A stretch of 22,593 bases of DNA from a virus. Below, one piece after another: positions 4,165-22,593 of this stretch. The notes beneath the pieces are model-generated. The model saw only the letters and a program-made list of their open reading frames with translations, was not told the origin of the DNA and made no database searches. Position 1 is the stretch's first letter, and each line of letters begins with the position of its first letter. The position numbers and the translations under genes are program-made. The DNA is taken from positions 1 to 22,593 of the IMG/VR virus record IMGVR_UViG_3300033429_000018; one strand, given 5' to 3'.

Positions 4165-5598
4165 TCAGACACCCGCATCGTCTACGATGCCAGTGATCTT
4201 GAAGTTCTTATGCGGCGCGATGTTGCCCGTCTGCATGACGATGTGGCCCACCGCGTAGAACGAATCTTTCCGGCCCGTCGCGTCGGTGACGCGGTTCCAG
4301 ATCGAGCCCGTGAGGTCGTCCCACTCCCAACCCGTGTTCCTCCACTGTTTGCAGGTATCGGATTGGATACCGAAGATCAGCGAGGACGGCATCTTGCGAA
4401 TGACCTTGAGCTCGACGTTCCGATCTCCGAAGATCATCGTGAGGCCCGCCTTCCCGCCTGTGTACGAGCGCGGGTCGTTGAGCCGTTTGTCGTCCTTGAG
4501 GTTCCTCCAGAAATTGCGAGCTCCCGAGCGCGACATGAGGATCTTGTCGATCTCGCCCTTCGCTCTCACGAACGTCTGGTCGTCCGCGAACGTGAGTAGA
4601 TCCTCCGTCACCTGGCCGCTGTACGGAGCCGCGGAACCATCGAACACCTGGGAACGCCAGGGCCGGTAGTCCGCACGGGCAAGACCCTGGAACGACGCCA
4701 GCACATCGCCGTTGTCGATCATACCCAGGAGTCCCATGATCTCGCGGTCTACGCCGGACGCCTGGTACGAGGCACCCGCGTCGTCACCGCCGAAGATGAA
4801 GTCGTCGTCGGCAACGTCTGTGCCAACAACAGCATCCAGCGTGATGCGGTTCGTGTCGGGATCGACGTCCACGATGGTCCGGGCCCCTGTCGTGGTACGA
4901 GGAGTCGTTCCGGCCGCGGCCGCCGCAAACACAATCGACTCACCCTCCATGAACTGCAACCAGCTATCCTCGAGTGACGCGATACCCATGCAAGCGTCGA
5001 TGTCGATGTAGACCTTCGCACCCGCATCCGGGTCCGCGTCATCGACCCGAGCTCGCACGCCAGCCCCGTAACCGAGGAGCATCCTGTCGAGCTCGTGATC
5101 CACACGAGTCTTGAGGTCGGGAAGGTGTCGCTGTGCCCAGGTAACGAACGCGCCCTCGCCGCGCTTCACACGCCGCATGGTGTCGCCCGTCATCTGCACC
5201 ACACCCTCGATCTTCTTCAACCAAACCTGGCTGTTCTTGATGACCGGGCCGTTCGGAACGGGGATGTAGTCGCCTTCCAGCTTACGAGCGCCCACACCGG
5301 CTGGCAGACTGAAATAGTGCGCCAATTCGATGTACCGGCCGCCCGTCGTTTCGGACACGGACACGTTCATGTCCTGCTCGAAACAATCGAGTAGCTCCGA
5401 GTCCTCGACAATGGAGTTTGTCAGAGGCTCCTCGAAGATGATTTTCATGGCCTCGTTGACGTTATAATCAACGCCGGCTGTGGTGCCGACTGACGCCATC
5501 GCCAGGGCCACGCCTCCTCCCGCCAGCATACTCGCAATTCCGTGCGTAAACGCCACGGCCGCGATTGCCAGCAGGAGTCCAAAGGTTTTCCTCAACAT
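4165..5598 (-). CDS. Major capsid protein with hydrophobic N-terminal extension
   Basis: A 477-residue protein directly downstream of a portal-scaffold pair; size, position and composition fit an HK97-fold major capsid protein that builds the icosahedral shell. An insertion-like acidic beta region (about residues 185-290, DVDPDTNRITLDAVVGTD) and a C-terminal VGHIVMQTGNIAPHKNFKI segment fit the coat family. The chosen ATG at 5598 has AGGAGAAAGAG before it, a well-spaced ribosome-binding site. That start gives MLRK followed by a long hydrophobic stretch ending ALA just before Met34, like a signal peptide with a signal-peptidase site. An alternative start at Met34 (5499) would remove it; its GGAGGAGG is about 13 bases away, which is far. 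Which form is in the capsid is unresolved. Confidence 0.9.
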   Translation of the reverse strand: MLRKTFGLLLAIAAVAFTHGIASMLAGGGVALAMASVGTTAGVDYNVNEAMKIIFEEPLTNSIVEDSELLDCFEQDMNVSVSETTGGRYIELAHYFSLPAGVGARKLEGDYIPVPNGPVIKNSQVWLKKIEGVVQMTGDTMRRVKRGEGAFVTWAQRHLPDLKTRVDHELDRMLLGYGAGVRARVDDADPDAGAKVYIDIDACMGIASLEDSWLQFMEGESIVFAAAAAGTTPRTTTGARTIVDVDPDTNRITLDAVVGTDVADDDFIFGGDDAGASYQASGVDREIMGLLGMIDNGDVLASFQGLARADYRPWRSQVFDGSAAPYSGQVTEDLLTFADDQTFVRAKGEIDKILMSRSGARNFWRNLKDDKRLNDPRSYTGGKAGLTMIFGDRNVELKVIRKMPSSLIFGIQSDTCKQWRNTGWEWDDLTGSIWNRVTDATGRKDSFYAVGHIVMQTGNIAPHKNFKITGIVDDAGV

Positions 5599-6746: not shown

Positions 6747-6758
6747 GGACGCTCCTTT
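6747..6758 (-). promoter_or_regulatory. Shared extended ribosome-binding motif, copy 2 (AAAGGAGCGTCC)
   Basis: AAAGGAGCGTCC lies just upstream of the scaffold ATG at 6743 and overlaps the stop codon of the portal gene. It matches the copies at 13425-13436 and 22270-22282 over 12 bases. Confidence 0.7.
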
Positions 6759-9012
6759 ACCTGGCGAACTCTGGCAAATGCCTGCCCGCTGGCGGGCCCT
6801 GCGGCATCTGCCGTGATCCTGGTCCTATGGGGCTCTGTGATCCTTCCGGCGTGGGTCCTTGTGGGCCGCCACCGTTCTCGCTCGGTGGGCCACCTTCCTC
6901 GCCTCCGGCTTCTGCGGCCGCGGCTTGCATCATCATCTCCTTCGCGATCTGTGCTTGCTCGACCATCTTGTGCTTGACCCAATGCCGGTGGAACTCCGTC
7001 TGCACTTCCATCGGCAGACGCAGGTACTCTGGCGAGGCCATGAACTCCTCGTGGATCCAGATGTGAACCATGTTGTCGTACCATTCGAGAATCGGGATCT
7101 CGTCGGACGGTACGCCCTGTACCAGCTTCCCGTTCTCCTGCTCGGCCGTGCTCCTGTGGACACCACCGGGCCTCGTTGCCCTGGCCATGTGCGGGAAACG
7201 GGAAAGGTCGAAGTACGCTTTCCTGGCTTCCGGTGTCCCTGGCATCCCCAGGAGCCCGTCCGCATACATGCGGTAGATCCTGTTCTGTCGCTCGCCGCGC
7301 CCTTCCGGGAGCATGGACTCGACGTCCACCGCGACGTTCACATGGCCTGTCTCGAACATCTCGGGCATGACGGTCACGGTACGCTGTACGCTGTCCTCAC
7401 CCGCGTACTGGATGATCTTCTCCTCGTCCCATATCGCGGGTAGGAGCTGGACCCAATCCTCCACCACACGGCCCATCGTGATTGCGGCTCGTCGGAGTGT
7501 CGGCCCCAAGAATCTGTCTGTGTTGAACCGGAGCTCCTTCACGAGCTCGCCACTAGCATCACGAGTGGGCGGTGTGCCTTCGGACCCCTCGAGATTGCCC
7601 AGGAAATCCATCTCGTCCTGGAGCATCTCCTGGATCTTCCAAACATCGGTCGGGAGTGGCGGTGGTTCCGCATATTCAATCGCGGGTACTCCCGGCCGGC
7701 GATTGACCTTGAGTATCAGACCCGGCTTGTTCGTCATCTGCTCCTCCTCGAGGCCGGACTGTTCGTCAATGACCATCGCCGGGTTGGTCACGAGGTTCCG
7801 GTGCTCGAGGATCTGAGCGATCCCGCGGTTGTACGTCCGCTGGATCGGGTTGAGCATTTCCTGTGGTGAGGTGCCGTGCGGTCGGCCGGGGAGGTTCACG
7901 AAATCGAAACGGTGGATCGGGCTCGCGCCCTTGAAGTGTACGGGTCGTGGACCGTCGTACAGAATGTGCTCTTTAGAGGCGACCATGAGCCGGCCACCTG
8001 GCTTGTCGGGGGCCGCCTGCATCGCGCCGTCCAGGATCCGTGACGGCATGTGCCAGAACTCATCTATTCGGACGAGCTCTCGTGAATAACCGTGGTCATA
8101 ACCACCGACACCCGGCTTGTTACCTGCGGCCCCGAAGTAGCCGGCCCCGAACATGATACGCTGTAGCTCACCGGCCCCATCAGCTTCCTCTCCCGATGTG
8201 TCCGGTGCCACCTCAATACCCCAGCGGTCGAGTACCTGCTCGACTGTGAGGTAGGTTCGAAGCATGTGCCATCGTTTGTGCTGGAAGGGCTTGTTGTTCC
8301 ACTCACCACGGACCTCCAGCGGATTGTGAACCGTAACCTGGATTTGCCCCTCATTGTACCTATGGGGCTCCCCGGTGGGATTCATCTCCCCACCGTCAAA
8401 GGTTGCTTGGGGCTCGCCGGACTCGTTGAACGGCACATCGTCATAGGTTTGCCCGTCGTAGTCGAACGAGCCCCGGTATTCGCGTAGCGGGCCCGAATCC
8501 GGGTCCACCGTAGAGCGCAGGTAGGACGCACCGCCAGGAATGAGATTGGACATGAGAAGGTCTACGACCTCGACCATGCCTATCTCGCCCCACAAGCTCT
8601 TGAATACGGTGTCCATGACCTCGGCCAACTGCGCGTCCATGCGGTCGCCTGTCGAGGGCTGGAAGGTCACAACGGGCGGGTTCTCCGTCATGCGTGCGTG
8701 GGTGAGCATGTACCAGTACAGGAGTCGGTTGACGACGGGGCGCTGTCGCCACCTTCGCTCATCCTGCGTGAGAAACCGGGACACATCCACCCACTTTTGC
8801 AGTAGGTCGGAGAAGATCATCCACTGTTGGCCCGCCAACATGCGGATGTTTTCCTCTACCTGGCGGTCGCGGTGCTGGAGCGCCCAGGTCTGCGAGCCCC
8901 ATAGTCCGTGCAGGAAGGCGATCCGCTTGCCGTCGAGAACGTCGCGCTCTCCGTCACCAAACGGGTTGGCGCGGAACGGCGGCATCTCATTCAGAATGAT
9001 CGGCTCTGCCAT
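6757..9012 (-). CDS. Portal protein (P22-like, large)
   Basis: The start is set at ATG 9012 (MAEPIILNEMPPF): GGGAG lies five bases upstream and the ATG overlaps the preceding stop as TAATG; an upstream extension of 12 residues is unlikely. The product of 751 residues forms the dodecameric ring at one capsid vertex through which DNA is packaged and ejected. The N-terminal motif ENIRMLAGQQW, followed by VVNRLLYWYMLTHARMTENPP (here split as read), is characteristic of P22-type portals, as is the length of more than 700 residues. The C-terminal 60 residues are Gly/Pro/Gln-rich and probably disordered. It sits between a jelly-roll protein and the scaffold, the usual portal-scaffold-capsid order. 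Confidence 0.9.
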   Translation of the reverse strand: MAEPIILNEMPPFRANPFGDGERDVLDGKRIAFLHGLWGSQTWALQHRDRQVEENIRMLAGQQWMIFSDLLQKWVDVSRFLTQDERRWRQRPVVNRLLYWYMLTHARMTENPPVVTFQPSTGDRMDAQLAEVMDTVFKSLWGEIGMVEVVDLLMSNLIPGGASYLRSTVDPDSGPLREYRGSFDYDGQTYDDVPFNESGEPQATFDGGEMNPTGEPHRYNEGQIQVTVHNPLEVRGEWNNKPFQHKRWHMLRTYLTVEQVLDRWGIEVAPDTSGEEADGAGELQRIMFGAGYFGAAGNKPGVGGYDHGYSRELVRIDEFWHMPSRILDGAMQAAPDKPGGRLMVASKEHILYDGPRPVHFKGASPIHRFDFVNLPGRPHGTSPQEMLNPIQRTYNRGIAQILEHRNLVTNPAMVIDEQSGLEEEQMTNKPGLILKVNRRPGVPAIEYAEPPPLPTDVWKIQEMLQDEMDFLGNLEGSEGTPPTRDASGELVKELRFNTDRFLGPTLRRAAITMGRVVEDWVQLLPAIWDEEKIIQYAGEDSVQRTVTVMPEMFETGHVNVAVDVESMLPEGRGERQNRIYRMYADGLLGMPGTPEARKAYFDLSRFPHMARATRPGGVHRSTAEQENGKLVQGVPSDEIPILEWYDNMVHIWIHEEFMASPEYLRLPMEVQTEFHRHWVKHKMVEQAQIAKEMMMQAAAAEAGGEEGGPPSENGGGPQGPTPEGSQSPIGPGSRQMPQGPPAGRHLPEFAR

Positions 9013-9719
9013 TACAACTCCCGAACAATGAGGTCCTGGATGACACAACCACCGAACCCACTACAGAAGGCGTGAACGTAGTCGGGCCCTGCGTGGGTCG
9101 AATCCGTGTCGTCGTAGACCGGGGTATCCGTGTCCTCGATGTCGGTCAGCCAGAGCTTGATCGCGGTGCCGATGATCTGTAGGCGTGCCGTGATCGGGAC
9201 CCCCGTACTGAGGTCGGTGCTCTCGTAGAGGTTGGTCGGGGTCGTGGTCGTCCAGTGATCCAGCGACAGCCGGTCGCCGGAACGGAGCCCGAACGAGTAG
9301 CCCGTGCGTTCGGCCAGGAGCGACCGGAAGTAGATGAGCGCCTCGCCCGTACCCGTGTGGTCAGTCTCAAAGACGGCCGTGATGTCGAGGTCCGCGCTCT
9401 GGCTTTCGGGGATGTAGTGGCCGGCGTTCGTGGAGCCGCTCCGCAGGGACGCCTCGCCCGAGCCGGCGACGATCTGGAGATTCCACGCGCTCGCGCTAGA
9501 CCAATCGCCGTCGTTGTTCCAGTACCAGGCCGTACCGACATTGGGGGTGTGGTTCTCGAGGTAGGTGGTGGACGCCTCGTCGAAGCGGTCAGAGAACACC
9601 AGGGTCCCGGACCCGCCGCCGCCCACCGCGTCACGATCTACGAATCCGGGCGCGGCCAGTAAATCGGCTTCGGCCGTCACCAGGGGTACATCCAGCCGGG
9701 GTGCGCTCAGTAGGGTCAT
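9012..9719 (-). CDS. Jelly-roll (LamG-like) protein in the head module
   Basis: A 235-residue protein starting at ATG 9719 in a one-base stop/start overlap and ending the same way at the portal gene. Residues 1-35 form a short arm ending in a Gly-rich linker (VGGGGSG). Residues about 38-235 are a beta-rich domain with FSDRFDEAS...NHTPNVGTAW, AGHYIPESQ, AVFETDHTGTGEALIYFRS and a terminal strand VIQDLIVREL, the pattern of concanavalin-like domains. Such domains bind glycans or decorate virion surfaces. It has the same DxFxEAS...HTP opening as the protein at 1-1149, suggesting shared ancestry. A jelly-roll protein between terminase and portal genes is unusual; capsid decoration or an early adhesin are both possible. 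Confidence 0.75.
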   Translation of the reverse strand: MTLLSAPRLDVPLVTAEADLLAAPGFVDRDAVGGGGSGTLVFSDRFDEASTTYLENHTPNVGTAWYWNNDGDWSSASAWNLQIVAGSGEASLRSGSTNAGHYIPESQSADLDITAVFETDHTGTGEALIYFRSLLAERTGYSFGLRSGDRLSLDHWTTTTPTNLYESTDLSTGVPITARLQIIGTAIKLWLTDIEDTDTPVYDDTDSTHAGPDYVHAFCSGFGGCVIQDLIVREL

Positions 9720-10551: not shown

Positions 10552-10738
10552 TCAGCCACCTCCTCGCTCGATTGTACCAGCGGTTCCGCTTCCGGCTGTA
10601 TGCGTGCAAGCGGATCAACTTGTCCACGATGCCCACGAGCTCACCGCGCTTGACGACGAGCGACGGGTGCTTGAGGTACTCGTAGAGTGATTCGCCGCGG
10701 TCTGCCTTGCCGGTCCTGCGTCGCTGTTCGCGGTTCAT
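10421..10738 (-). CDS. Small basic protein downstream of large terminase (105 aa)
   Basis: The ATG at 10738 overlaps the terminase stop as ATGA and is preceded by GGAG at seven bases, so this short start is preferred to an upstream one. Residues 1-62 look like ordinary coding sequence: MNREQRRRTGKADRGESL, then a helical LVVKRGELVGIVDKLIRLHAYSRKR-type region, strongly basic. From about residue 63 the frame overlaps the next gene and the reading becomes Asp/Gly-rich, probably a by-product of the other frame. The basic N-terminal part could bind nucleic acid. Function unknown; the overlap of 131 bases is far longer than elsewhere in this genome. Confidence 0.6.
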   Translation of the reverse strand: MNREQRRRTGKADRGESLYEYLKHPSLVVKRGELVGIVDKLIRLHAYSRKRNRWYNRARRWLNGPDASGNRHDGDADSDPTDRRSGAGMVPGPQLFESENTDGAP

Positions 10739-12282
10739 ACTTGTGCTCCGAACTCCGGGTGAAGGACGTCGTTGGAGAAGGCGGCCGGGAGCTTCGACTT
10801 CCGGCCTTTCTCGTACTCGACCTCGAGGGCTTCCTGGCTCCACGCTCCGGTATCGTGATCCAGGGTACGGTTGCCGGCCGGGACCTGGCGGCTGGCTACC
10901 GCGTACCGCGTTTCGTCGTACATGTCGTCCCCGCCGTTACCGAACTCGTCGGCGTCCAGCTTGAGCGAGTCCTCGGGGTTGTCGGGGTCTGACGGCATGG
11001 CCTCGAGCTGTTCAAAACACTTCCGGTTGCCTTCGGTGTCGAACATGACGAGCCAGGGGGCCTCGTCCTCGTTATCGAACGAGAAGAACCGGCGCATGTT
11101 GTTGAGCCCTGCGATCCGGCTGATGTTCGCCTGGATGAACACGAACCCCTCGCGCAGGAACTCCTCGGCCAGGGTAGGCATGTTCTCCTGCCGTGACTTG
11201 TGGTCGTGCCAGCAATCGTGGCCGGCGTACACATGCCGCATCCTGCGCCAATCAATGTCCATCGCCTCAAGCCGAGCCTTGACCATCTGAGCGATCTCCG
11301 GTGGTCGCTGGTGGCTGTAGGTCACGGTGTCCAGCTTGAAGTGTCGGCCGTCCTCGTTGACCGCATAGACACCCCACGAATAGGGGTGCGCGTAGCCCCA
11401 ATCGAACGAGCCGTAAATCTTCCAATTCTCCGGGATCTTGAACCCTGGGATCAAGTGGATGTCGGGGTCCATCATGGTGAGTGCCAGCCCGAGCCCTGCG
11501 TTCCAATCGCCGTCGCGTAGCCAGGACCGGAACGGTTCCGGCAGGGTCGAGAGCTCGTTCACATACTCCGGGTCGCGTTCCATGAGAACGTGATTGTCGG
11601 GCACCTTCGCCTGGACGAAGGCGTACATATCCGGGCTCTCACGGTACTTCGTGTAGTACCGGCGAGTGATGAACAGTCGCTTGTACCAGTGGTGGCCGAC
11701 GTTGCCGGGGTTCGAGGGGTAGAGCACGAACGGGCGAGATCCGTCTACAGTGGCACGGAGTCGGTTGCCTGTGAGCCAGCGCACGAGGTCCCAGGTGTAG
11801 TGGGTCGATTCCTCGAAGATCATAAAGTCGAACTCGACGCCCTGGTATCGCTTGAGGTCGTCCTGGTCCTTGAGGAACCCGAAGTACAGACGGGACCTGT
11901 TGAAGAACTCGGCGCACATGTCCTCCCCGTTGTAGGAGTACACCTGGTCGCCGGTCTTACGGTCGGGCCACCTGTCGGGCACCTCGAACTTGAACTTGAC
12001 GAGGTGGTTCGACTTCACCTCGGCCTTCGTTGACCGGAAGATGATCCCGGTACAGCCAGGCCACCTCATACATGCCGCCACACCGACGGCACGAGCGAGA
12101 TGCGACTTACCGCCGCCAGCCGCTCCACCGTACCCGATGTGACGGCAGTATGGTTCGTCCGGCCCCTTCGCCAGCGGGGTGTGATTGAACGCCTCCATCT
12201 GCTTCGGCTGGAGCCCGTAGATCATCTGCCGTTGGCTACCGTCCGGCTTCTGGAGTACGACGACCGGCTCGAGAACGGCCAT
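10735..12282 (-). CDS. terL: Terminase large subunit (packaging ATPase/nuclease)
   Basis: A 515-residue protein that pumps DNA into proheads and cuts it. The Walker A motif is GGAAGGGKS at residues 52-60 and the Walker B motif FMIFEE at 153-158, with the catalytic glutamate following the acidic residue. The C-terminal RNase H-like nuclease domain starts around residue 288 with YGSFDWGYAHP (Asp294 as first metal ligand). AGHDCWHD follows, then an acidic cluster, DEFGNGGDDMYDETRYAV, near the end. Length and motif spacing are normal for large terminases. The start at ATG 12282 lacks a strong ribosome-binding site, but the adjacent gene stops four bases upstream. The small subunit is over 1.3 kb away, separated by five small genes. 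Confidence 0.93.
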   Translation of the reverse strand: MAVLEPVVVLQKPDGSQRQMIYGLQPKQMEAFNHTPLAKGPDEPYCRHIGYGGAAGGGKSHLARAVGVAACMRWPGCTGIIFRSTKAEVKSNHLVKFKFEVPDRWPDRKTGDQVYSYNGEDMCAEFFNRSRLYFGFLKDQDDLKRYQGVEFDFMIFEESTHYTWDLVRWLTGNRLRATVDGSRPFVLYPSNPGNVGHHWYKRLFITRRYYTKYRESPDMYAFVQAKVPDNHVLMERDPEYVNELSTLPEPFRSWLRDGDWNAGLGLALTMMDPDIHLIPGFKIPENWKIYGSFDWGYAHPYSWGVYAVNEDGRHFKLDTVTYSHQRPPEIAQMVKARLEAMDIDWRRMRHVYAGHDCWHDHKSRQENMPTLAEEFLREGFVFIQANISRIAGLNNMRRFFSFDNEDEAPWLVMFDTEGNRKCFEQLEAMPSDPDNPEDSLKLDADEFGNGGDDMYDETRYAVASRQVPAGNRTLDHDTGAWSQEALEVEYEKGRKSKLPAAFSNDVLHPEFGAQV

Positions 12283-12285
12283 CGG

Positions 12286-12540
12286 TTACTCGGTTCTACG
12301 GGTCGGCGGTAGCGGCTTGTAGACCGGCTTGGACCCGCTCGGGCCCGTCTTGCCCGAACCCTCGCCAGGCATCTTCCGGGCCTTCTTCTGGTTCTTCAAG
12401 GACTTGATCGCGTCCTCGAGCTTCTGCCGGCGGATCGCCTTCGTTTCCGCCAGGCCCTCGGCGTAGTCACGCTTGGTGCCCTTCCGCTTCTTCTTCTTCA
12501 TAACCACCCGGCCCTTTGCCTTCTTCTTCTCCTGCGGCAT
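12286..12540 (-). CDS. Lysine-rich basic protein (84 aa)
   Basis: ATG at 12540 overlaps the upstream TAA by one base. The 84-residue product is extremely basic: MPQEKKKAKGRVVMKKKKRKGTKR at the N terminus (quoted in two parts in reality), a helical middle KLEDAIKSLKNQKKARK and a Gly/Pro/Ser tail. Such composition suggests a nucleic-acid-binding or DNA-condensing protein, perhaps packaged with or acting on DNA during packaging, given its place just before the large terminase. No family recognised. Confidence 0.7.
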   Translation of the reverse strand: MPQEKKKAKGRVVMKKKKRKGTKRDYAEGLAETKAIRRQKLEDAIKSLKNQKKARKMPGEGSGKTGPSGSKPVYKPLPPTRRTE

Positions 12541-12806
12541 TATTCCTCCCGTTCAGAATGTGGACCTGGACACGAGCAATCCGCGTAGTGGTCGTTGCAC
12601 TCCAGGCACCAGGGCTCGCCGCAGAGCTCGCAAGCTACGCACTCGTCAGCAAACTTAACGGGCTTGGAGAAATCGATGGTATGAGGTTCGCCAGGTCCGC
12701 TTTCCGTTACCTCGCGCATGACTACGGCTTCGACGCCAGCTTCCTTGAGCTCGCCCGACATGCCCCGAAGTATATCCCCGATGTGCTCCATGTTACCCAT
12801 TACCAC
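12540..12806 (-). CDS. Small cysteine-cluster (zinc-binding-like) protein
   Basis: The 88-residue frame begins at a GTG (12806) directly after the preceding TAG; an ATG at 12800 with AGGTGG close upstream is an equally plausible start. The N-terminal half is helical (MEHIGDILRGMSGELKEAG). Near the C terminus lies a dense cluster, CVACELCGEPWCLECNDH, then CSCPGPH, with seven cysteines and two histidines in about 28 residues, enough to hold two zinc ions. Its place between small and large terminase genes suggests a packaging or DNA-associated accessory role, but function is unknown. Confidence 0.65.
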   Translation of the reverse strand: MVMGNMEHIGDILRGMSGELKEAGVEAVVMREVTESGPGEPHTIDFSKPVKFADECVACELCGEPWCLECNDHYADCSCPGPHSEREE

Positions 12807-13440: not shown

Positions 13441-13614
13441 CTAAAACCACACGAGCCATTGGCCCGCTACGAATATGAAAATCTGAACGGCTAAGAAGAA
13501 TCTGCGGAAAAGCGAACGTGGGTCCCATAGGGTGGGTCCCCTCCCGGCCGCGAATCCGGGGCCGCCTCTGGGGGTGCGTGTCGTGCGAGCCGTGCCTGCC
13601 TGCGCCGTGGTCAA
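13441..13614 (-). CDS. Putative small membrane protein, TTG start (57 aa)
   Basis: An open frame of 57 codons fills what would otherwise be a 187-base gap. It starts at a TTG (13614) that overlaps the small-terminase stop as TTGA, mirroring the ATGA/GTGA junctions of neighbours, and its TAG at 13441 sits just ahead of the next ribosome-binding site. Residues 1-30 are Thr/Arg/Gly/Pro-rich. Residues about 36-57 are a strongly hydrophobic aromatic helix (LFRRFFLAVQIFIFVAGQWL then VWF at the end), preceded by arginines, as in a single-pass inner-membrane protein. A small holin-like or membrane-acting phage peptide is possible. The TTG start and small size keep confidence moderate. Confidence 0.45.
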   Translation of the reverse strand: MTTAQAGTARTTRTPRGGPGFAAGRGPTLWDPRSLFRRFFLAVQIFIFVAGQWLVWF

Positions 13615-14225
13615 GGTCGCCCCGTTCTGGCCGGCGTCGTGAGCTGTAGCGGTTGTGCAGTATCTATTGCTTGTCCAGGTGCGGCGTCGTGCTGGCCGGT
13701 AGGATTGACCTGGCCCCTCAGCTCGTCGGGACCTGCGACGAACACCGCGAAGCCCCCGGTGTGCTGTATGGACCCGCGGAGCTCCGGCCTACCCTCGCAC
13801 CTGTCTATGATGTACTGGGCTGACTTCACCGCTGACCGGATCCGCTCATCCGACCAACCAGCCGGCAAGCCACCCGCCGCCGCCAGCTCGAGAGTTGCTT
13901 GGGCTCCCGGTGCCAGCTCCCACCAATCACGGAGCAGGTCACGCACTCCGGCCGCCGCCTCATTCCTCAGCTCGTGAATACGCGCCTGTACTCGGTCCCG
14001 CTTTAGCAAACGACTAGCGCACGCACCGGCCACCGGCTTAGACGAGCAACTGGGGAAGGCGTGCAGGTAGCAGAGGGTCCCGTTGCCCTGCATCCCATCG
14101 GCGCCGGCCACATAAGCCAGCGCAAAGGATTCCTCCCCAGGTGTCAACGTCAGACGGTCCGCCAGAGGTCCCCCGATCGGTGCTAGGGTATGGCCCCAAC
14201 CTAGCCAGGTGCGCCAGCTATGCAA
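13611..14225 (-). CDS. terS: Terminase small subunit
   Basis: Residues about 27-95 carry the small-terminase DNA-binding pattern: LTPGEESFALAYVAGADG, then YLHAFPSC, a helix with ACASRLLKRDRVQARIHELR, then Ala-rich helices. This matches the familiar 'LTPxQExFxxxYL ... A ... A.ASRLLKxxxVxARIxEL' shape of small terminases, which recognise viral DNA and hand it to the large subunit. The frame is 204 codons from a TTG at 14225; a stop lies just upstream and there is no ATG or GTG before the domain, so the true start may be this TTG or a later TTG/CTG (for example TTG at 14147). The C-terminal 50 residues are Gly/Pro/Gln-rich. It is the first gene of the late block, divergent from the plus-strand cluster. 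Confidence 0.78.
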   Translation of the reverse strand: MHSWRTWLGWGHTLAPIGGPLADRLTLTPGEESFALAYVAGADGMQGNGTLCYLHAFPSCSSKPVAGACASRLLKRDRVQARIHELRNEAAAGVRDLLRDWWELAPGAQATLELAAAGGLPAGWSDERIRSAVKSAQYIIDRCEGRPELRGSIQHTGGFAVFVAGPDELRGQVNPTGQHDAAPGQAIDTAQPLQLTTPARTGRP

Positions 14226-14343: not shown

Positions 14344-14598
14344 ATGTCACGCCCGCAGTATTCCACCGAGCACTTCGAAGCCCAGCAACACGAAGCCGGC
14401 AGAGGTCCCGACTACTACGGGCCACCGCTGGCGGCACCACTGGACGAGGCGAAGCTGGCACCTCGCATCGTCCGCCGGCAGATCGCGCACCTTGAGTGCG
14501 GCGAATGTCACCGCAGGTTCACGAGGTCGGCCCGTCACCTCATGCTTTCCGAGATCCGCTGTCCGGGTTGCCGTTCGGTTGATGTTGATGTGGTCTAA
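14344..14598 (+). CDS. Zinc-ribbon-like small protein, first gene of plus cluster (84 aa)
   Basis: ATG at 14344 has GGGAG eight bases upstream and lies shortly after the operator-type promoter. Residues 1-45 are hydrophilic (MSRPQYSTEHFEAQQHEAGR). Residues about 52-79 hold ECGECHRRF ... RCPGCRSV, two Cys-x2-Cys knuckles about 18 residues apart, the form of a zinc ribbon. Such proteins often bind nucleic acids or partner proteins. As the first gene it would be made earliest and most. No family name can be given. Confidence 0.75.
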   Translation: MSRPQYSTEHFEAQQHEAGRGPDYYGPPLAAPLDEAKLAPRIVRRQIAHLECGECHRRFTRSARHLMLSEIRCPGCRSVDVDVV

Positions 14599-15063: not shown

Positions 15064-15602
15064 GCGCCTTTCTTGTATCCGCATCGACTATCGGGGCCGT
15101 GGCCAGGTACGCCGCGGATGAGCGGTTGAAGATATACCACCGTCGCAAGGCGGGAGGTTGGCCCGATGGTGATCCCATCGACGCCACAACCGAGCAAGGC
15201 CGGCAAGCTATCTGCACTCTACTGGCCGCCGCCAACGTGCGGAGTCTCGCGGTACGCTACCCGGACACGGCAGAACAAGGCGCGGCCGCCTGGACGGACA
15301 CCGTGGCCGATGACCTCGACTACACCGCGCTTTGTTGCCAAGCCGCACGGCTACAGCTCCACCGGATACACCCCGGCAAGTACGAGTGGACGCCACCGCA
15401 GAGGCACATCAACATCTATAAGCTATGCGGCTGTATCGACTACCAGTGTTGTGAGTTTGCCGAATGGCCCGACGATCCGGCCTACCGCATCCTTGAGCGG
15501 GTCAAGGATCACGCGGCGGTGAAGGCGTTTCAGTCTGTCTACCTGTCGAACGGGGCCCAGCGGGACAAAAGCCGTTACGAGCTGGCCCCGTGGGGCCTGT
15601 GA
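15060..15602 (+). CDS. Conserved phage-type protein of unknown function, 'MSAF' N terminus (180 aa)
   Basis: Start ATG 15060 overlaps the upstream stop as ATGA. The 180-residue product opens MSAFLVSASTIGAVARYA and contains NVRSLAVRYPDT, then CGCIDYQCCEFAEWPDDPAY and ends YELAPWGL. I recall families of phage and bacterial hypothetical proteins with the same succession: MSAF(I/L)VS start, 'S.xxRY', 'C.DYQ.CE...W' and a C-terminal APWG. This one appears complete by that pattern. Biochemical role is unknown. The cysteines around residues 120-130 are conserved-looking and may bind a metal. It is the largest of the plus-cluster genes. Confidence 0.75.
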   Translation: MSAFLVSASTIGAVARYAADERLKIYHRRKAGGWPDGDPIDATTEQGRQAICTLLAAANVRSLAVRYPDTAEQGAAAWTDTVADDLDYTALCCQAARLQLHRIHPGKYEWTPPQRHINIYKLCGCIDYQCCEFAEWPDDPAYRILERVKDHAAVKAFQSVYLSNGAQRDKSRYELAPWGL

Positions 15603-15829
15603 TGCGGTTCCTCGACTACGGATGCACGGTATGCGGTAGGGGATGGCTCTCGCACCAACTGGTGCGGGAGCTGTGCCCGAGGTGCGGCGGGCCATGCGAG
15701 ATCCTGACCGACGACAACAACACGACCAAGAGCCCGACCGAATCGGACGACCTCTGGGTGGGTTGCGTGATCCTGTACGTGGCGGCCGGCGCCCTTATCG
15801 CCCTGGCCGGCTTTCTCTACTCATGTTGA
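15602..15829 (+). CDS. Zinc-ribbon protein with C-terminal membrane helix (75 aa)
   Basis: ATG at 15602 overlaps the previous TGA (TGATG), so the shorter start is used. Residues 8-30 contain CTVCGRGW and LCPRCGGPC, two Cys-x2-Cys knuckles that would hold one zinc. Residues about 51-73 (LWVGCVILYVAAGALIALAG, then FLYSC) are a single hydrophobic segment, so the protein is tail-anchored with the ribbon in the cytoplasm. That combination could bring a host or phage factor to the membrane. No family recognised. Confidence 0.7.
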   Translation: MRFLDYGCTVCGRGWLSHQLVRELCPRCGGPCEILTDDNNTTKSPTESDDLWVGCVILYVAAGALIALAGFLYSC

Positions 15830-15842
15830 ACCGGGAGGCACC

Positions 15843-16214
15843 ATGAGCACACCGCAGGAACACCAGAGGCACGACGCGACGCCGGAACCCGAACCGCTGA
15901 CGGCATACTGCCGGGATTGCGGGAGCACGCGCATCTGGATGCAAGAGATGACCTACTTTCGCCAAGAGGTGACGTTTCTCGAACGCCTGCCGGACGAAGC
16001 GGGGCGGCCGATGTACGAGATCGACTACGGGCCGTGCTACGATTACGTCTACGAGTCCACCGAGGACATCACCGACGCCAACGGCACCGTGCTGGCCTAC
16101 GTCTGTCGGGAGTGCGAGAGCGAACACGCGCTGGCTGACCTGCTGATCGTGGAGAACACGAACGAGCTCGTGCAGATCCCAGAGGAAAGGAGGCCCAACC
16201 ACTATGGCAAATGA
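15843..16214 (+). CDS. Zinc-binding-like protein, split Cys pairs (123 aa)
   Basis: ATG 15843 follows GGGAGGCACC, nearly the same leader as the gene at 14881. After a charged N terminus (residues 1-20), CRDC at about residues 23-26 and CREC at about 90-93 form two Cys-x2-Cys pairs separated by a 60-residue acidic, tyrosine-rich insertion (MYEIDYGPCYDYVYESTEDI). This looks like one zinc ribbon with a domain inserted between its halves. Function unknown. It overlaps the next gene by 11 bases. Confidence 0.72.
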   Translation: MSTPQEHQRHDATPEPEPLTAYCRDCGSTRIWMQEMTYFRQEVTFLERLPDEAGRPMYEIDYGPCYDYVYESTEDITDANGTVLAYVCRECESEHALADLLIVENTNELVQIPEERRPNHYGK

Positions 16215-16413
16215 CCGAGGGTTCATAGCGAGGCAGGCCAAGTTCAATAAGCGGATGGTCAAGAGCCACGAACGGAGCACGAACCGCTGGGCTGACAAGC
16301 TCGTGGCGCAGGAAGAAGCGAGGGCCAGGGCGACCCGAACGTGCGCCGAGTGCGGAGCAGGGACACGCAAGGCGGCCCGGTTCTGCGAACAATGCGGAAA
16401 GGAGCTGACATGA
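16204..16413 (+). CDS. Small basic protein with C-terminal zinc ribbon (69 aa)
   Basis: ATG 16204 is preceded by AAAGGAGG and lies inside the last 11 bases of the previous gene. Residues 1-45 are basic and helical (MANDRGFIARQAKFNKRMVK). Residues about 46-69 read CAECGAGTRKAARFCEQCGK, a textbook short zinc ribbon with CxxCG pairs, as found in many zinc-ribbon regulatory and transcription-associated proteins. The basic helix plus ribbon suggests nucleic-acid binding. The stop overlaps the next ATG (ATGA). Confidence 0.75.
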   Translation: MANDRGFIARQAKFNKRMVKSHERSTNRWADKLVAQEEARARATRTCAECGAGTRKAARFCEQCGKELT

Positions 16414-17941: not shown

Positions 17942-18126
17942 AACTGCGACGAGTGACCGTCTGGGTGGGCCCTCAAGACTGGGCGACAATCAAGCGGCTC
18001 GCCGCCGTCCGTACCGTCGAGGAGGACGAACGGGTGACGACCAGCGAACTCGTGCGACGCGGTATCGCACGGGAGATCCAAGCTGTACGGGGCCTCGACG
18101 GACAGCCACGCTACAAGAAGCCCTAG
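17938..18126 (+). CDS. Ribbon-helix-helix-like DNA-binding protein (62 aa)
   Basis: ATG 17938 is in an ATGA overlap. The product has a short basic strand (KLRRVTVWV), a helix (DWATIKRLAAVRT), a turn, and a second helix (TTSELVRRGIAREIQAVR): strand-helix-helix, the plan of ribbon-helix-helix (Arc/CopG-like) repressors that bind DNA as dimers. The length of 62 residues is typical. Sitting last in the cluster, it could act on the inverted repeat at 14273-14297, but this is inference. Its TAG overlaps the opposing gene's stop by four bases. Confidence 0.65.
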   Translation: MKLRRVTVWVGPQDWATIKRLAAVRTVEEDERVTTSELVRRGIAREIQAVRGLDGQPRYKKP

Positions 18127-18569
18127 ATCCCCAGCTCCTCCGCCAGGTCGTCGGCGGAGGAGCTCTCTCCCAGGGGGAACACCCACCGATCCACGAACTG
18201 CTGACACCTCGGACTCACCACGAGCTCGCCGGACGGGTGCATCGGGACGCCCGCCCTGGCTAACGCATAGATCGCATCGTCAATCGTCCAGACGGGACAC
18301 GCATAGCGACCGGATGCGATCTCACGGTTCATCCAATCCACTTGATCGGTCGAGGGCTTGTTCTTCTCCCACTTCACCTCGAGCCACACCACGACGTCGG
18401 CCCACACCACCCGGAGATCGGGGATCCCGAGCGTCTGTTGGGTGCCGGCATAGATGCGCTTGTGACACTTCGGGCACCGCCCTGGCCGGCGCTGACTGAA
18501 CTCATCTACCTCACACGAGTACAGCTTGCAGAGGTTGATGATCGACCGCTCGAGCCCCTTCTCACTCAC
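18123..18569 (-). CDS. VRR-NUC nuclease with Cys-x2-Cys insertion (148 aa)
   Basis: The GTG at 18569 is preceded by GGAGG seven bases upstream and overlaps the upstream stop (GTGA), so the shorter start is used. The PD-(D/E)XK core is clear: Glu7 in an N-terminal helix, GIPDL with Asp51, WLEVK with Glu64 and Lys66, and Gln76 in KPSTDQ. That is the VRR-NUC form, known for structure-specific (flap or junction) DNA nucleases in phages and in FAN1. An added RCPKCH at residues 31-36 sits between the first helix and the Asp strand, perhaps a zinc knuckle. It is a likely partner in phage recombination with RecT upstream. Convergent with the plus-strand cluster. Confidence 0.82.
   Translation of the reverse strand: MSEKGLERSIINLCKLYSCEVDEFSQRRPGRCPKCHKRIYAGTQQTLGIPDLRVVWADVVVWLEVKWEKNKPSTDQVDWMNREIASGRYACPVWTIDDAIYALARAGVPMHPSGELVVSPRCQQFVDRWVFPLGESSSADDLAEELGI
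18133..18164 (+). terminator. 12-bp perfect hairpin at the convergent junction
   Basis: AGCTCCTCCGCC (18133-18144) and GGCGGAGGAGCT (18153-18164) pair perfectly over 12 bp with an eight-base loop, seven bases beyond the last plus-strand stop. It lies in the C-terminal codons of the VRR-NUC gene, so it can fold in both transcripts. There is no T-run, so a two-way terminator or transcript-end stabiliser is inferred. Confidence 0.5.
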
Positions 18570-19120
18570 GGGTGCGCCTCCATCCAAGCGATTGCCATGT
18601 CCAAGAGCGGCACGAGCTCTCTGGATAGGAACTCGTGAGGTACGAACCAGCCAGGAGCCGTTTTCGGGCTTCGGCCGTGGCTCGGGTCGTACCACTGACC
18701 GACCACGGGACCGGCTTCCGCCAGGCACCAGCCGACCACGAGGAACTGTTGAGCTCTATCCGGGACCGCCACAACCCACACGACCCCCATCTCCGGCTTC
18801 TTCTCGCTCTCCCAGGGCTTGATCTTGAGCCCCTTGCCCCTCGTGACCCAATTCGAGGCACGGACCTCGAGGCCACACACATCGCCGTCCTTACGGAACC
18901 GATTGACGCTCGCCTCCCAGGGCACACCGAGCAGGTTCGCCACCACGAGCTCACCAGCGGCACCCAGAATGTCGTTCTTGTACGCCTTGTCCATCGAATC
19001 CTGCGGCCAGTTGTCCTTCTGGCCGCCTTCCTTACGGCGACGGACACCGATCTCGGTAGCCCAAGCGTAGTCCGCAAACCCCAGAGCAATCGTGTCGATG
19101 ACGTCCATTAGGTCGCTCAT
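18566..19120 (-). CDS. PD-(D/E)XK-like protein (184 aa)
   Basis: ATG 19120 overlaps the upstream stop (ATGA) and follows GGGGGTGAC; an extension to 19159 is not needed. Residues about 50-90 read GAAGELVVANLLGVPW ... DGDVCGLEVRAS, giving Glu57 in a helix, Asp80 and Glu85-x-Arg87: the order of a restriction-endonuclease-like core, with Arg instead of Lys in the last motif. Two further strands (GVVWVVAVPD and QFLVVGWCLAE) fit this fold. I recall phage hypothetical proteins with the same 'GxxxE ... D.G..VR.s ... fvlvGW' pattern. Activity is uncertain because of the Lys-to-Arg change. Confidence 0.65.
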   Translation of the reverse strand: MSDLMDVIDTIALGFADYAWATEIGVRRRKEGGQKDNWPQDSMDKAYKNDILGAAGELVVANLLGVPWEASVNRFRKDGDVCGLEVRASNWVTRGKGLKIKPWESEKKPEMGVVWVVAVPDRAQQFLVVGWCLAEAGPVVGQWYDPSHGRSPKTAPGWFVPHEFLSRELVPLLDMAIAWMEAHP

Positions 19121-19560
19121 GTCACCCCCATCTTCTGCCTGGACATCTGCGCCTCCCATTCGTCCGGTGCCAGCACCACCACCACCGGGGCCGGATAACC
19201 GTCACGGCTCTCGGTTGGGACCTCAACACCGTCCCGTTGCCGTTCCGCGAAGATGCGGAGCCAATGCTTGTGTGCCGTCGAGCCCTCCTTGACCTCGATT
19301 CGCACGGGCTCGTCAGGGTTCGCCGCTCGCTCGCCGCGATGGATCGGTGTGGCAGGAGGCGCAGACTCGAGGAAATCGGCCGGTCGTGGATACCGTGTGG
19401 ACTCAGCGAACAGCACCTTACTCGCGGCGGTGAACTGTTCGTCGGTGAGTTTCAGTTTGAGAAACTCGTAATACTCGTCCAGGGCGGCGCTCTTGAGCTT
19501 CTTGTCGAAGCGGAGCTCGATGCGCTGGATACCCAGAGCAAACGCTGGCATGGAGAGCAT
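19117..19560 (-). CDS. Probable replication-associated small protein (147 aa)
   Basis: The start is ATG 19560, with GGAGGT four bases upstream and a one-base overlap with the preceding stop; an earlier start gives Gly/Arg noise across the neighbour. Residues about 1-65 have FALGIQRIELRFDKKLKS and LDEYYEFLKLKLTDEQFTAA, then YPRPADFLES. The 'LtxeqFxxA ... YPxPaDFL' pattern is common in phage proteins near replication initiators. The C-terminal half is basic/acidic mixed with PAPVVVVLAPDEWEAQM. A helicase-loader or replisome-accessory role is a guess from context. Confidence 0.6.
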   Translation of the reverse strand: MLSMPAFALGIQRIELRFDKKLKSAALDEYYEFLKLKLTDEQFTAASKVLFAESTRYPRPADFLESAPPATPIHRGERAANPDEPVRIEVKEGSTAHKHWLRIFAERQRDGVEVPTESRDGYPAPVVVVLAPDEWEAQMSRQKMGVT

Positions 19561-19802: not shown

Positions 19803-20675
19803 TCAATCCTCCTTGTCGAAGAACGCTTCCCACCGAACATCCTCATTGAGCTCGGTGCCGGCGTTCTGGTATGCTTTGCCGAAGTGCTTGCGGAGATCGA
19901 ACATGTCCCAGAGCTCGCCCTTGCTGTACGGGTAGGTGTGGGCCATGCCATCCCAGGCACGCACGATCTCCTGCGGCTCGTTCTCGTTCGCCATGAGCAC
20001 CGCAATCCGAAACTGCTTCTTGATCTGCGACTGAGGCGGGCGGGCGGAGCAGACCTGGGCAATCCACCGACCGACCATCATGGACGCAATCTCGTGTGGC
20101 GTGTACTGAATCTGAACGGGCTCAACAAACGAAATCTGTCCATCGTTTTGTAGTATTTCGCCTACGACTACAGTGGAAGGTGCGAAAGAAGGACCGTTAG
20201 GTTCTTCTTGAGTACCTGTAACTGTAGGAGTAGTAACACCCTTTGTTTCCTGCCCGTTCGACCTAGCGGGGGAAACCGTTGCAGGAACAGAACTTTCGCG
20301 TTTCCTTAATTGAACGGGCACGTTCGCGTTTCCTCCCGTTGCTTCGAAGTGCTGGTATTCCTCATACTTACATATAGTTAGCACGCCTGGGTCGCGTTTC
20401 CCCGGCGGCGGTCGGGACCAAGTGACCCGCCCTTCGGCCTCGAGTCTCGTGAGGAACGTGTAGACCTTCTTATCGCTCCAATTCCAACGGGCCGACAGGA
20501 ACCGAACGGACGCTCGAAGCTGACCCCGCTCGAGCGAGCTACCGTCAAACGGACGGGCCCTCCCGATGAGGTCGATCCATGCGAACGCCTTGCACGCGGC
20601 CTCACCCGTCGAGGCGGGATGTAACGGGTGGGCCGGGTCAAGGAGCTCGGCCGATACAGCGACCGTGCGGGCCAC
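19803..20675 (-). CDS. Replication initiator-like protein (lambda O/DnaD type layout)
   Basis: The GTG at 20675 lies two bases after the RecT stop and has no strong site of its own, so it is probably coupled. The 290-residue product has an N-terminal helical DNA-binding region (residues about 25-100), with AFAWIDLIGRAR, RASVRFLSARWNWSDKKVYT and FLTRLEAEGRVTW, the look of the winged-helix domain of phage replication proteins. Then comes a Thr/Ser/Gln-rich linker (about 110-190). A C-terminal domain (about 195-290) includes MMVGRWIAQVC and MFDLRKHFGKAYQNAG. The layout resembles phage O-type initiators that bind the origin and recruit a helicase or loader. Codons about 92-127 hold three copies of TCGCGTTTCC in low-GC DNA. 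No ATPase motif is seen. Confidence 0.65.
   Translation of the reverse strand: MARTVAVSAELLDPAHPLHPASTGEAACKAFAWIDLIGRARPFDGSSLERGQLRASVRFLSARWNWSDKKVYTFLTRLEAEGRVTWSRPPPGKRDPGVLTICKYEEYQHFEATGGNANVPVQLRKRESSVPATVSPARSNGQETKGVTTPTVTGTQEEPNGPSFAPSTVVVGEILQNDGQISFVEPVQIQYTPHEIASMMVGRWIAQVCSARPPQSQIKKQFRIAVLMANENEPQEIVRAWDGMAHTYPYSKGELWDMFDLRKHFGKAYQNAGTELNEDVRWEAFFDKED
20296..20401 (-). repeat. Candidate replication-origin iterons inside the initiator gene
   Basis: The plus-strand 10-mer TCGCGTTTCC occurs at 20296-20305, 20324-20333 and 20392-20401, all in one orientation. A low-GC stretch (TCATACTTACATATAGTTAG, 20362-20381) lies between copies two and three. The 300 bases from 20101 are about 49 % GC, against more than 60 % in the flanks. 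Copies fall in two different reading phases of the gene, so protein coding does not explain them. Origin function is inferred by analogy with lambda. Confidence 0.5.
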
Positions 20676-20677
20676 TG

Positions 20678-22267
20678 TTAGTCGATGATCTGTCGGAGCC
20701 GCAGGACATCAACGAGCTCACGCCGGCCGTCCTCGTCAAGCGAGAGCGGCTGGATCTGCGCCTCCCCTTCCTTCCTGTAGGGCTCGAACGTGTCGGCATA
20801 CTCGATGCTATTGAGGGTCGTGATGACCATCGTGGTCTTGAACCCCTTGTCCGCCACCTGGCGGTATATCTCCGCCAGCTTCGGCACCTCGAAAGCGGTA
20901 GTCGTAGAGGATGACGGCTCCTCCGTCGATGGGAGCGACTCCGATTCCGATGACGTAGGGTCCGGCTTGTCGAGGTCCTGCTTCTTGGCCTCCTCGAGCC
21001 CCGCCGCCGCGTCCGCATAGTTGATCGCCGCCAGGCACGCATCGTCCCAGGTGAAGAAGTGACCGGGTATGGTCGGGCCGGCAGGTTCACCCGGCTCTAC
21101 CCACACGAACGGGACGAACAACTCGCCCTCCTGCTGGATCTCGTAGCCCTCGGGGAGTGTGAGCACCGACTCCGGCTCCGGGGCAAGCGGCATCTGCCCG
21201 AACACACCCAGCCAGGTCAGGGCCGTATGCTGGATCACACCGTCCGCATCGTAGCCGACGAACAGCTCGCCGTCGCGCATGATGACGCACCCCTCGGGGA
21301 GCATGGCTTCCGCCTTCTTCTCCTCCTTGTGGGCCCTACCGTGGCCGGCGAGCGACCGCTGGTTCTTGTAGTCGGTGATGCAGTAGCCACAATGAAACCG
21401 CTTCTCCTCAAAGGAGTCCTCTGCCGATGCGCTCGTAGACCCATTTGGGGATCCAGCTTCCGGGTCCGCCGGCTCCGATGATTGGCTCTCCTGCTTTTCG
21501 AGGGCCTTCTGCAACTGCTCCACCGTAGGGTCCACGGCGGGCCCGTCCACCTCGATGACCGTACCTGGCGCGAGCTTGGCGGCGAGCTCCTCCTGGGCGG
21601 CGGCTGTGGCGGCCTGGGCCGCACCGGAAGCGACAGCGCCGGGGTCCCACGCCTCCGAGCCCCAGTCGGCCTCAGAGTAGAGCCCCTGCGTGCTCTCCGG
21701 GCACACGACACGGATAGTAGAGCTCAACACGCGGGCCATCACCATCTCGGACGGGTTGTTCCGCCAGTTTTGCTTGTTGAACAGGTGCTTGAAATCCTCC
21801 ATCAAGCGCATCTCCATGTGGTCGGCCATGTCGCCGGTCATGTGGGCTACGCAGTAGGCACCCAGACACCGACCAGCCTTGAGCCCGCCTGTATGCTGAA
21901 CCATGACCTTCCCATCGGCCCGCTTCGTCCACTGGAAGTCCTCGCCTTCGTAGACATGCTGGAACTCGAGCGATTCGACACGGGGATCCCTGGCCGCGAT
22001 GTCGATGAACCCCTTGTAGTCGATCTGGAACGTCAACCGGCCGCCGTCGCCCTTCCATGCGTGGATCTGGGTGAATGGGTTGAGCCCCGACATCTTGGCC
22101 CGGATACCGAGCGCGATGACGTTCACGGGATCGTCGCGGAACCCGTCCGGCAACTGCGCTCGCATGGCCGAGATATAGGCGGCCTCGTAGGTCACGCCTA
22201 CGCCAGCGTTCACAATCTCCGCGAGTGATTGCTTCTTCTCGTGGGGTACTACTGCTCCTCCGGTCAT
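20678..22267 (-). CDS. recT: RecT-family single-strand annealing protein with C2H2 finger and C-terminal extension
   Basis: ATG 22267 follows the shared AAAAGGAGCGTCCGA motif; a 30-residue upstream extension is basic noise overlapping the previous gene. Residues about 15-215 are a RecT core: ALGIRAKMSGLNPF, then GRLTFQIDYKGFIDIAARDP, YCVAHMTG, and WRNNPSEMVMARVLSSTIR. RecT anneals complementary strands in phage recombination. The protein is 529 residues, about twice normal. Beyond the core come an Ala/Pro-rich linker and a classical zinc finger at residues 293-313 (Cys293, Cys296, His309, His313). Two copies of LPEGxxIxxxGELFV follow (323-337 and 371-385), then a Ser-rich linker and a helical end. 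The fusion is unusual; the finger may bind DNA or another protein. Confidence 0.88.
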   Translation of the reverse strand: MTGGAVVPHEKKQSLAEIVNAGVGVTYEAAYISAMRAQLPDGFRDDPVNVIALGIRAKMSGLNPFTQIHAWKGDGGRLTFQIDYKGFIDIAARDPRVESLEFQHVYEGEDFQWTKRADGKVMVQHTGGLKAGRCLGAYCVAHMTGDMADHMEMRLMEDFKHLFNKQNWRNNPSEMVMARVLSSTIRVVCPESTQGLYSEADWGSEAWDPGAVASGAAQAATAAAQEELAAKLAPGTVIEVDGPAVDPTVEQLQKALEKQESQSSEPADPEAGSPNGSTSASAEDSFEEKRFHCGYCITDYKNQRSLAGHGRAHKEEKKAEAMLPEGCVIMRDGELFVGYDADGVIQHTALTWLGVFGQMPLAPEPESVLTLPEGYEIQQEGELFVPFVWVEPGEPAGPTIPGHFFTWDDACLAAINYADAAAGLEEAKKQDLDKPDPTSSESESLPSTEEPSSSTTTAFEVPKLAEIYRQVADKGFKTTMVITTLNSIEYADTFEPYRKEGEAQIQPLSLDEDGRRELVDVLRLRQIID

Positions 22268-22593
22268 TCGGACGCTCCTTTTGTGGTCGTGATGGTCCCG
22301 TCTTTGATGCCGGTAACCGATTCCTCTTTTGTGATGATTCCTTTGCGGATCAACCATCGCTCGAACTTCGCGGGGTCGTGGGTGATTTCGCCCAACCGTA
22401 TGCTGTTCGCTAACTCGTGGAGCTCCTGCGCCCTTAGAGCTTGCTGTTTACCCATTTCCATTTGCGCGAGGCGGCGTTGCCGTTGTCTCTCGAGCTCCTC
22501 GTCCTGCTTCACCTTCCGCTCAAAGGCGCGTTCGCGCTCCCAACGAACTTGATGCTCCCGACTTATGCGTATCCTGTTGCGTTCCTCGTACTC
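22264..22593 (-). CDS. Charged coiled-coil protein, N terminus off right edge
   Basis: The frame is open to the right edge with no stop, and all 109 visible codons look alike in composition. A GTG at 22512 could start it, but the upstream codons (EYEERNRIRISREH, then WERERAFERK) continue the same Glu/Arg-rich helix, so it probably begins outside the window. The visible part is a long charged coiled coil (EELERQRQRRLAQMEMGKQQ) followed by a small domain with FERWLIRKGIITKEE. The stop overlaps the RecT ATG as ATGA. It may be a partner in the recombination block; no family recognised. Confidence 0.65.
   Translation of the reverse strand, partial: EYEERNRIRISREHQVRWERERAFERKVKQDEELERQRQRRLAQMEMGKQQALRAQELHELANSIRLGEITHDPAKFERWLIRKGIITKEESVTGIKDGTITTTKGASE
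22270..22282 (-). promoter_or_regulatory. Shared extended ribosome-binding motif, copy 4 (AAAAGGAGCGTCC)
   Basis: AAAAGGAGCGTCC followed by GA and the RecT ATG at 22267; twelve bases match the copies before the scaffold and 13423 genes. It lies inside the end of the upstream coiled-coil gene. Confidence 0.7.

Follow-up and report, generated by a model that had tools for sequence, protein, structure and literature searches.

Why should a phage annealing protein of the RecT type carry a zinc finger within an additional C-terminal stretch of ~315 residues, and is such a fusion real? The question is raised by a gene in the 22,593-nucleotide stretch of DNA analyzed here (termed the window), which is the complete 22.6-kb virus record. 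The initial annotation had placed this gene at 20678-22267 and the interval proved correct, the coding frame lying on the minus strand: a single frame runs from an ATG at 22267 to a stop codon at 20678-20680 and encodes 529 amino acids, and the plus strand of the same interval, interrupted by internal stops, contains no open frame (Table 1). An alternative in-frame ATG at 22357 would lengthen the product, and the start at 22267 was preferred because of its ribosome-binding site and because a homologous gene in a related phage, described below, starts at the equivalent place. In both loci the recT ATG overlaps the stop codon of the preceding gene by 4 bases (ATGA).

That the protein possesses a RecT-type core, as the initial annotation had proposed from family pattern, was borne out by sequence and fold comparisons. 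PF03837 was matched with an E-value of 2.6e-19 (70 bits against a gathering cut-off of 24 in a Pfam scan) and PHROG 148 (RecT-like annealing protein) with an E-value of 6e-13. A full-length AlphaFold model, for whose alignment the sister protein introduced below was combined with 30 RecT rows from other phages, displayed pLDDT values of 75-91 in most blocks of the core, and its sole PDB matches at E<=0.001 were RecT of Listeria phage A118 (7ub2) and lambda Redbeta (7ujl), with a probability of 1.00. The NCBIfam model TIGR00616 ('recombinase, phage RecT family') scored 34.1 bits for the window protein and 39.1 for the sister, below its curated cut-off of 52.65; the protein is therefore a divergent RecT, found within the wider Pfam family and outside the NCBIfam subfamily model. 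It shares with the RecT/Redbeta annealing proteins the sequence family of the core, the fold and, as judged from the sister locus, an exonuclease gene nearby, but differs from them by an added tail of ~315 residues, in which a C2H2 finger is followed by a pair of small units and a helical end.

Another phage with a RecT-finger fusion, which according to the initial annotation would, together with a confident C2H2 fold, support its reading, was found once. This sister protein of 522 amino acids is encoded on IMGVR_UViG_3300010430_000510 (locus L002), from an uncultured phage, and is 62% identical to the window protein over residues 7-528. The identity is unevenly distributed, reaching 83% in the core and 81% in the finger and dropping to 27-38% in the linkers, and dN/dS between the two genes was below 0.3 in each conserved island, with dS near saturation in some of them. 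This alternation of high-identity islands and low-identity linkers, together with the low dN/dS, indicates that the tail is made of constrained modules on loose linkers, as far as can be read from one pairwise comparison between the only two tail-bearing sequences.

Table 1. Coordinates of the recT-zinc finger gene, its parts and its neighbors in the window, and of zinc fingers on other phage proteins (last four rows, coordinates of the loci named).
Feature	Coordinates	Strand	Basis or remark
recT-zinc-finger fusion gene	20678..22267	-	529 codons + stop; translation, Pfam RecT, full-length 62% identical homologue
Ribosome-binding site AAAAGGAG	22275..22282	-	7 bases before recT ATG; read from sequence
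RecT annealing core, residues 46-201 (Pfam extent)	21665..22132	-	PF03837 and fold match
Variable linker, residues 251-285	21413..21517	-	Codon alignment: 38% identical to sister over 21 aligned positions
C2H2 zinc finger, residues 293-313	21329..21391	-	Pattern; PDB profile search; ligands in sister; predicted beta-beta-alpha
First small unit, residues 323-352, opening with LPEGxxIxxxGELFV	21212..21301	-	63% identical to sister
Second small unit, residues 371-419, opening with the second block	21011..21157	-	37% identical to sister
Variable Ser/Thr/Pro/Asp/Glu-rich linker, residues 420-457	20897..21010	-	27% identical to sister
Predicted helical C-terminal domain, residues 458-529	20681..20896	-	73% identical to sister
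Preceding gene, 3' part, cut by contig end	22264..22593	-	67% identical to L002:823-1395; sister homologue 191 aa
Next gene, DnaD-like helicase loader	19803..20675	-	PHROG 2514 E 8e-8; PHROG 186 E 1e-5
Non-RecT phage finger, L138	11286-11402		C2H2 pattern
Non-RecT phage finger, L141	14585-14701		C2H2 pattern
Non-RecT phage finger, L133	5121-5228		C2H2 pattern
Non-RecT phage finger, L135	8992-9108		C2H2 pattern

The classical C2H2 motif was located exactly where it had been annotated. The sequence CGYCITDYKNQRSLAGHGRAH at residues 293-313, with C293, C296, H309 and H313 as candidate ligands, fits C-x2-C-x3-[FY]-x5-L-x2-H-x3-H without deviation, satisfies the general form C-x2-4-C-x3-[FY]-x5-L-x2-H-x3-5-H as well, and is preceded by F291, the customary aromatic residue at -2. 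All four ligand residues are retained in the sister protein together with F291, Y300 and L306. Using a profile made of the window and sister finger sequences alone, hmmsearch against all PDB sequences returned C2H2 fingers as top matches (a designed finger protein, E 0.002, and human ZFAT, E 0.004). In Pfam, the finger stays under the C2H2 cut-off, the sister finger scoring 15.2 against 25.2 bits and that of the window being unlisted for zf-C2H2; it is therefore termed C2H2-type, on its pattern and predicted fold, and not a Pfam member. With the classical families PF00096 and PF13912 it has in common the exact motif spacing, the positions of the hydrophobic core and, by prediction, the beta-beta-alpha fold, and its LxGHxRxH ending resembles fingers of other uncultured phages which pass PF13912, but it departs from these families in being single, sub-cut-off and borne by an annealase.

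The finger is predicted to adopt a C2H2-type beta-beta-alpha fold in one of the two modeled constructs. In the best of five AlphaFold models of residues 284-434, computed from an alignment that included four other phage fingers which may have helped, it forms a hairpin followed by a helix with pLDDT of 84-87; the mean pLDDT of the five models ranged from 79 down to 46 and only the best one was confident. This modeled finger superposes on solved C2H2 fingers (6h0g_C, 1.5 A over 30 residues; 2els, 2.3 A over 34 residues) with a Z of 2-3, which is low, but for an aligned piece of only ~30 residues. These matches come from structural re-alignment, the Foldseek search of the 284-434 model against the PDB having returned nothing at E<=0.001. 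No hairpin forms in the full-length model, where the pLDDT of this region is below 50.

Beyond the finger, two LPEGxxIxxxGELFV blocks occur at the positions initially reported, LPEGCVIMRDGELFV at residues 323-337 and LPEGYEIQQEGELFV at 371-385, and are identical at 10 of their 15 residues, a figure that never exceeded 7/15 in shuffled tails. The proposal of a duplicated module is weakly supported: the repeat exists in the window protein and both stretches are predicted to be beta-beta-alpha, but it is absent from the sister, whose equivalents are LPEGCAVVRDEHRFV for the first block and VPEHYLVFVDRGGQHV for the second, only the first block being present there. Since the sister protein yielded neither a significant internal repeat nor significant similarity between its two units, the duplicated module was rejected as a conserved feature. 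An old duplication that decayed in the sister and a later local copy would both fit this block pattern. The first small unit is modeled with strands at 45-49, 52-56 and 62-66 and a helix at 69-75 (numbering of the 284-434 model), and the second is predicted as beta-beta-alpha in both the full-length and the 284-434 models. The second unit also bears a weak structural resemblance to NMB1088 (3bid, a DUF1508-like protein; Z 4.8 and rmsd 5.6 over 56) and to dimethylformamidase (6lvb_B). Only such faint similarity of fold links the small units to DUF2188/DUF1508-like beta-beta-alpha units, the match to a viral DUF2188 protein having TMt 0.51 and E 0.5, and no sequence match to these two families was found. 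Helices are predicted with low confidence at 463-473, 478-499 and 512-528 of the C-terminal domain (full-length model), for which two weak, unrelated PDB matches and none in the phage collection were obtained.

How unusual this architecture is was estimated by a survey of IMG/VR frames drawn by two conserved DNA patterns and confirmed by profile, a non-exhaustive sampling which yielded 195 RecT frames, 169 of them untruncated, including window and sister. A classical finger was present in these two proteins alone, and in the remaining 167 the region following the core lacked both a classical finger and Cys/His clusters of any kind, so that this sample upholds the earlier statement that such fingers are missing from RecT proteins. 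The associated size range of 270-300 amino acids is the usual one, although larger phage RecT proteins, of about 380-480 amino acids, are found as well. Counted from the YKG motif, the window and sister proteins extend for 443 and 434 residues against 288 for the next longest frame and a median of 195, and their tails are thus the longest of the survey by about 145 residues, those of the other 167 frames falling short by 146 residues or more. Pattern and protein searches of viral contigs recovered the sister as the only further RecT-finger protein, and two genome scans recovered none, their lone pattern match not being a RecT. In the phage collection, matches were weak and confined to the core, those of the tail being no better than chance level; PADLOC gave no match, and in the collection of papers searched none contained RecT, C2H2 and phage together as whole words and nothing relevant was retrieved for RecT plus zinc. 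Small proteins unrelated to RecT carry classical C2H2 fingers in further uncultured phages (Table 1), and the fingers of L138, L141 and L133 exceed the Pfam cut-offs (PF13912 or PF00096). The finger is therefore a module that phages use, and what is new is its placement on an annealase. An annealase is thereby added to the few phage proteins in which this analysis encountered fingers of the classical C2H2 type. We conclude that the RecT-finger-tail protein is a real, conserved and very rare RecT variant and not a new kind of system.

At the sister locus, genes for a YqaJ/RecE-type exonuclease, the 191-aa protein, RecT and a DnaD-like helicase loader follow one another. The window displays the same order from the gene of the 191-aa protein onward and ends before the position of the exonuclease gene. 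The latter lies two genes upstream of the sister recT and was recognized by Pfam YqaJ (1.5e-6) and by PHROG 434, RecE-like (2.5e-25); an exonuclease in the same operon as the annealase, that is a SynExo pair, was thus seen in the sister locus only. As read from the sequences, this gene order is the known exonuclease/annealase layout. The replication operons of the two phages otherwise match except for a gene swap, a 197-aa PHROG 18407 protein (window 18566-19159, minus strand) being replaced by a different 99-aa protein (L002 4334-4633). A probable endonuclease or Holliday-junction-resolvase-like gene is also present in the window at 18123-18728 on the minus strand (PHROG 93, E 7e-8; PHROG 5702, E 5e-6).

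What could the tail be for? We lean, with some reserve, towards the gene product being the annealase half of a phage RecE/YqaJ-RecT pair whose tail serves as an interaction arm, the finger being a zinc-stabilized contact module within it. Lambda Redbeta deprived of its C-terminal domain retains annealing and loses recombination, and this domain contributes to binding of the partner exonuclease (PMC5052646); these findings and the exonuclease/annealase layout are the grounds on which the tail is read as an interaction arm. Binding and annealing of single strands would fall to the RecT core, as in other RecT proteins. The tail would present its conserved islands (finger, two predicted beta-beta-alpha units, helical domain) on variable linkers, and the helical end and finger may contact partners at a fork or resected end, candidates being the exonuclease, SSB, the helicase loader or DNA near the core. 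The island pattern, with 81% identity in the finger, 73% in the helical end and 83% in the core against 27-38% in the linkers, fits functional modules, and the overall acidity of the tail, calculated by segment, fits a flexible arm with no DNA-coating role of its own. Like the Redbeta C-terminal domain the tail forms a separate module behind the annealing core, but it is larger and multi-part, and no sequence match was found between its helical end and that domain. A common extra C-terminal domain, remotely Redbeta-like, has been described in Firmicutes annealases (PMC8093625).

Two alternatives would deprive the tail of such a role. An assembly join or a frameshift could have linked a normal RecT gene to an unrelated downstream frame; no point in its favor was found, and we rejected it, its probability being practically negligible, on the full-length homologue with the same gene order on a separate contig, on the even GC3 (0.79-0.87 along the whole gene) and on the lack of any N, which likewise argue strongly that the fusion is uninterrupted, as had been claimed. 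It is also improbable that the Cys/His motif arose by chance or is a decayed remnant devoid of a zinc site in a mostly disordered acidic linker. The sub-threshold Pfam score and the disordered, low-confidence finger region of the full-length model would agree with this, but only 6e-8 such motifs are expected by composition in the 314-residue tail, 60 windows simulated with matching dinucleotide composition contained none in six frames, C2H2 fingers rank first in the PDB profile search, and the four ligands, like F291, Y300 and L306, persist in a sister finger far more conserved than the linkers.

If the finger is functional, it might act directly on DNA. The finger segment has a net charge of +2 and is the sole net-positive segment of the tail among those measured (the others range from -4 to -15), which makes direct contact with duplex, junction or single-stranded DNA beside the annealing groove, independent of sequence and aiding loading or stabilizing the product, the main rival to the interaction arm, though an unlikely one. 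A charge of +2 is modest and is flanked by acidic residues (EEK before, EEKKAEA after), and lone C2H2 fingers seldom bind DNA well unaided, usually requiring a neighboring finger or a basic arm. Zinc fingers are not foreign to such functions, since a DNA-binding small viral zinc finger protein is known in AFV1p06 of an archaeal virus (PMC5569661) and the viral annealase ICP8 of herpes includes a zinc finger; ICP8 is however unrelated, and its finger has three Cys and one His as ligands and resides in the protein body rather than in a C2H2 tail (PMC13137030). A role in directing the annealase to one defined DNA site (the phage origin or pac/cos, for instance), which was the first option of the initial annotation, appears very improbable and is the least likely one for an isolated +2 finger. 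The finger is classical with a full helix, and the DnaD-like loader gene directly downstream makes co-production with replication factors probable, but a lone finger with no basic arm and with Asn, Arg, Ser and Gly (read from sequence) at the usual base-contact positions -1, 2, 3 and 6 is poorly suited to site recognition, and annealing proteins work on resected ends regardless of sequence. Contact of the finger with a partner protein or a DNA structure is more likely than site-specific targeting.

We tentatively raise the possibility that in this phage lineage the annealase has become a multi-contact hub, whose eukaryote-type C2H2 finger and added small domains would recruit the exonuclease and the replication machinery, or DNA itself; if this is true, zinc would have a part in phage recombination. 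RecT-type annealases are believed to depend on their tails for the choice of exonuclease and host factors, a constraint on recombineering outside E. coli. With its compact zinc module, open to mutation, the tail of this natural annealase would offer a clean handle on tail function, since substituting single ligand residues should unfold only that contact and spare the core.

The window phage appears, from its predicted proteins, to be rich in zinc-binding candidates: at least five small proteins of zinc-ribbon type have paired CxxC motifs (14344-14598, 15590-15829, 15843-16214 and 16204-16413 on the plus strand, 12540-12806 on the minus strand), and two of them, when scanned, gave weak Pfam zinc matches. 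The minus-strand genes at 4165-5598, 6757-9048, 10735-12282 and 13611-14225 make up a packaging block of ordinary tailed-phage type (major head protein, portal, large terminase subunit with best matches of ~30% identity in Arthrobacter and other phages, and small terminase).
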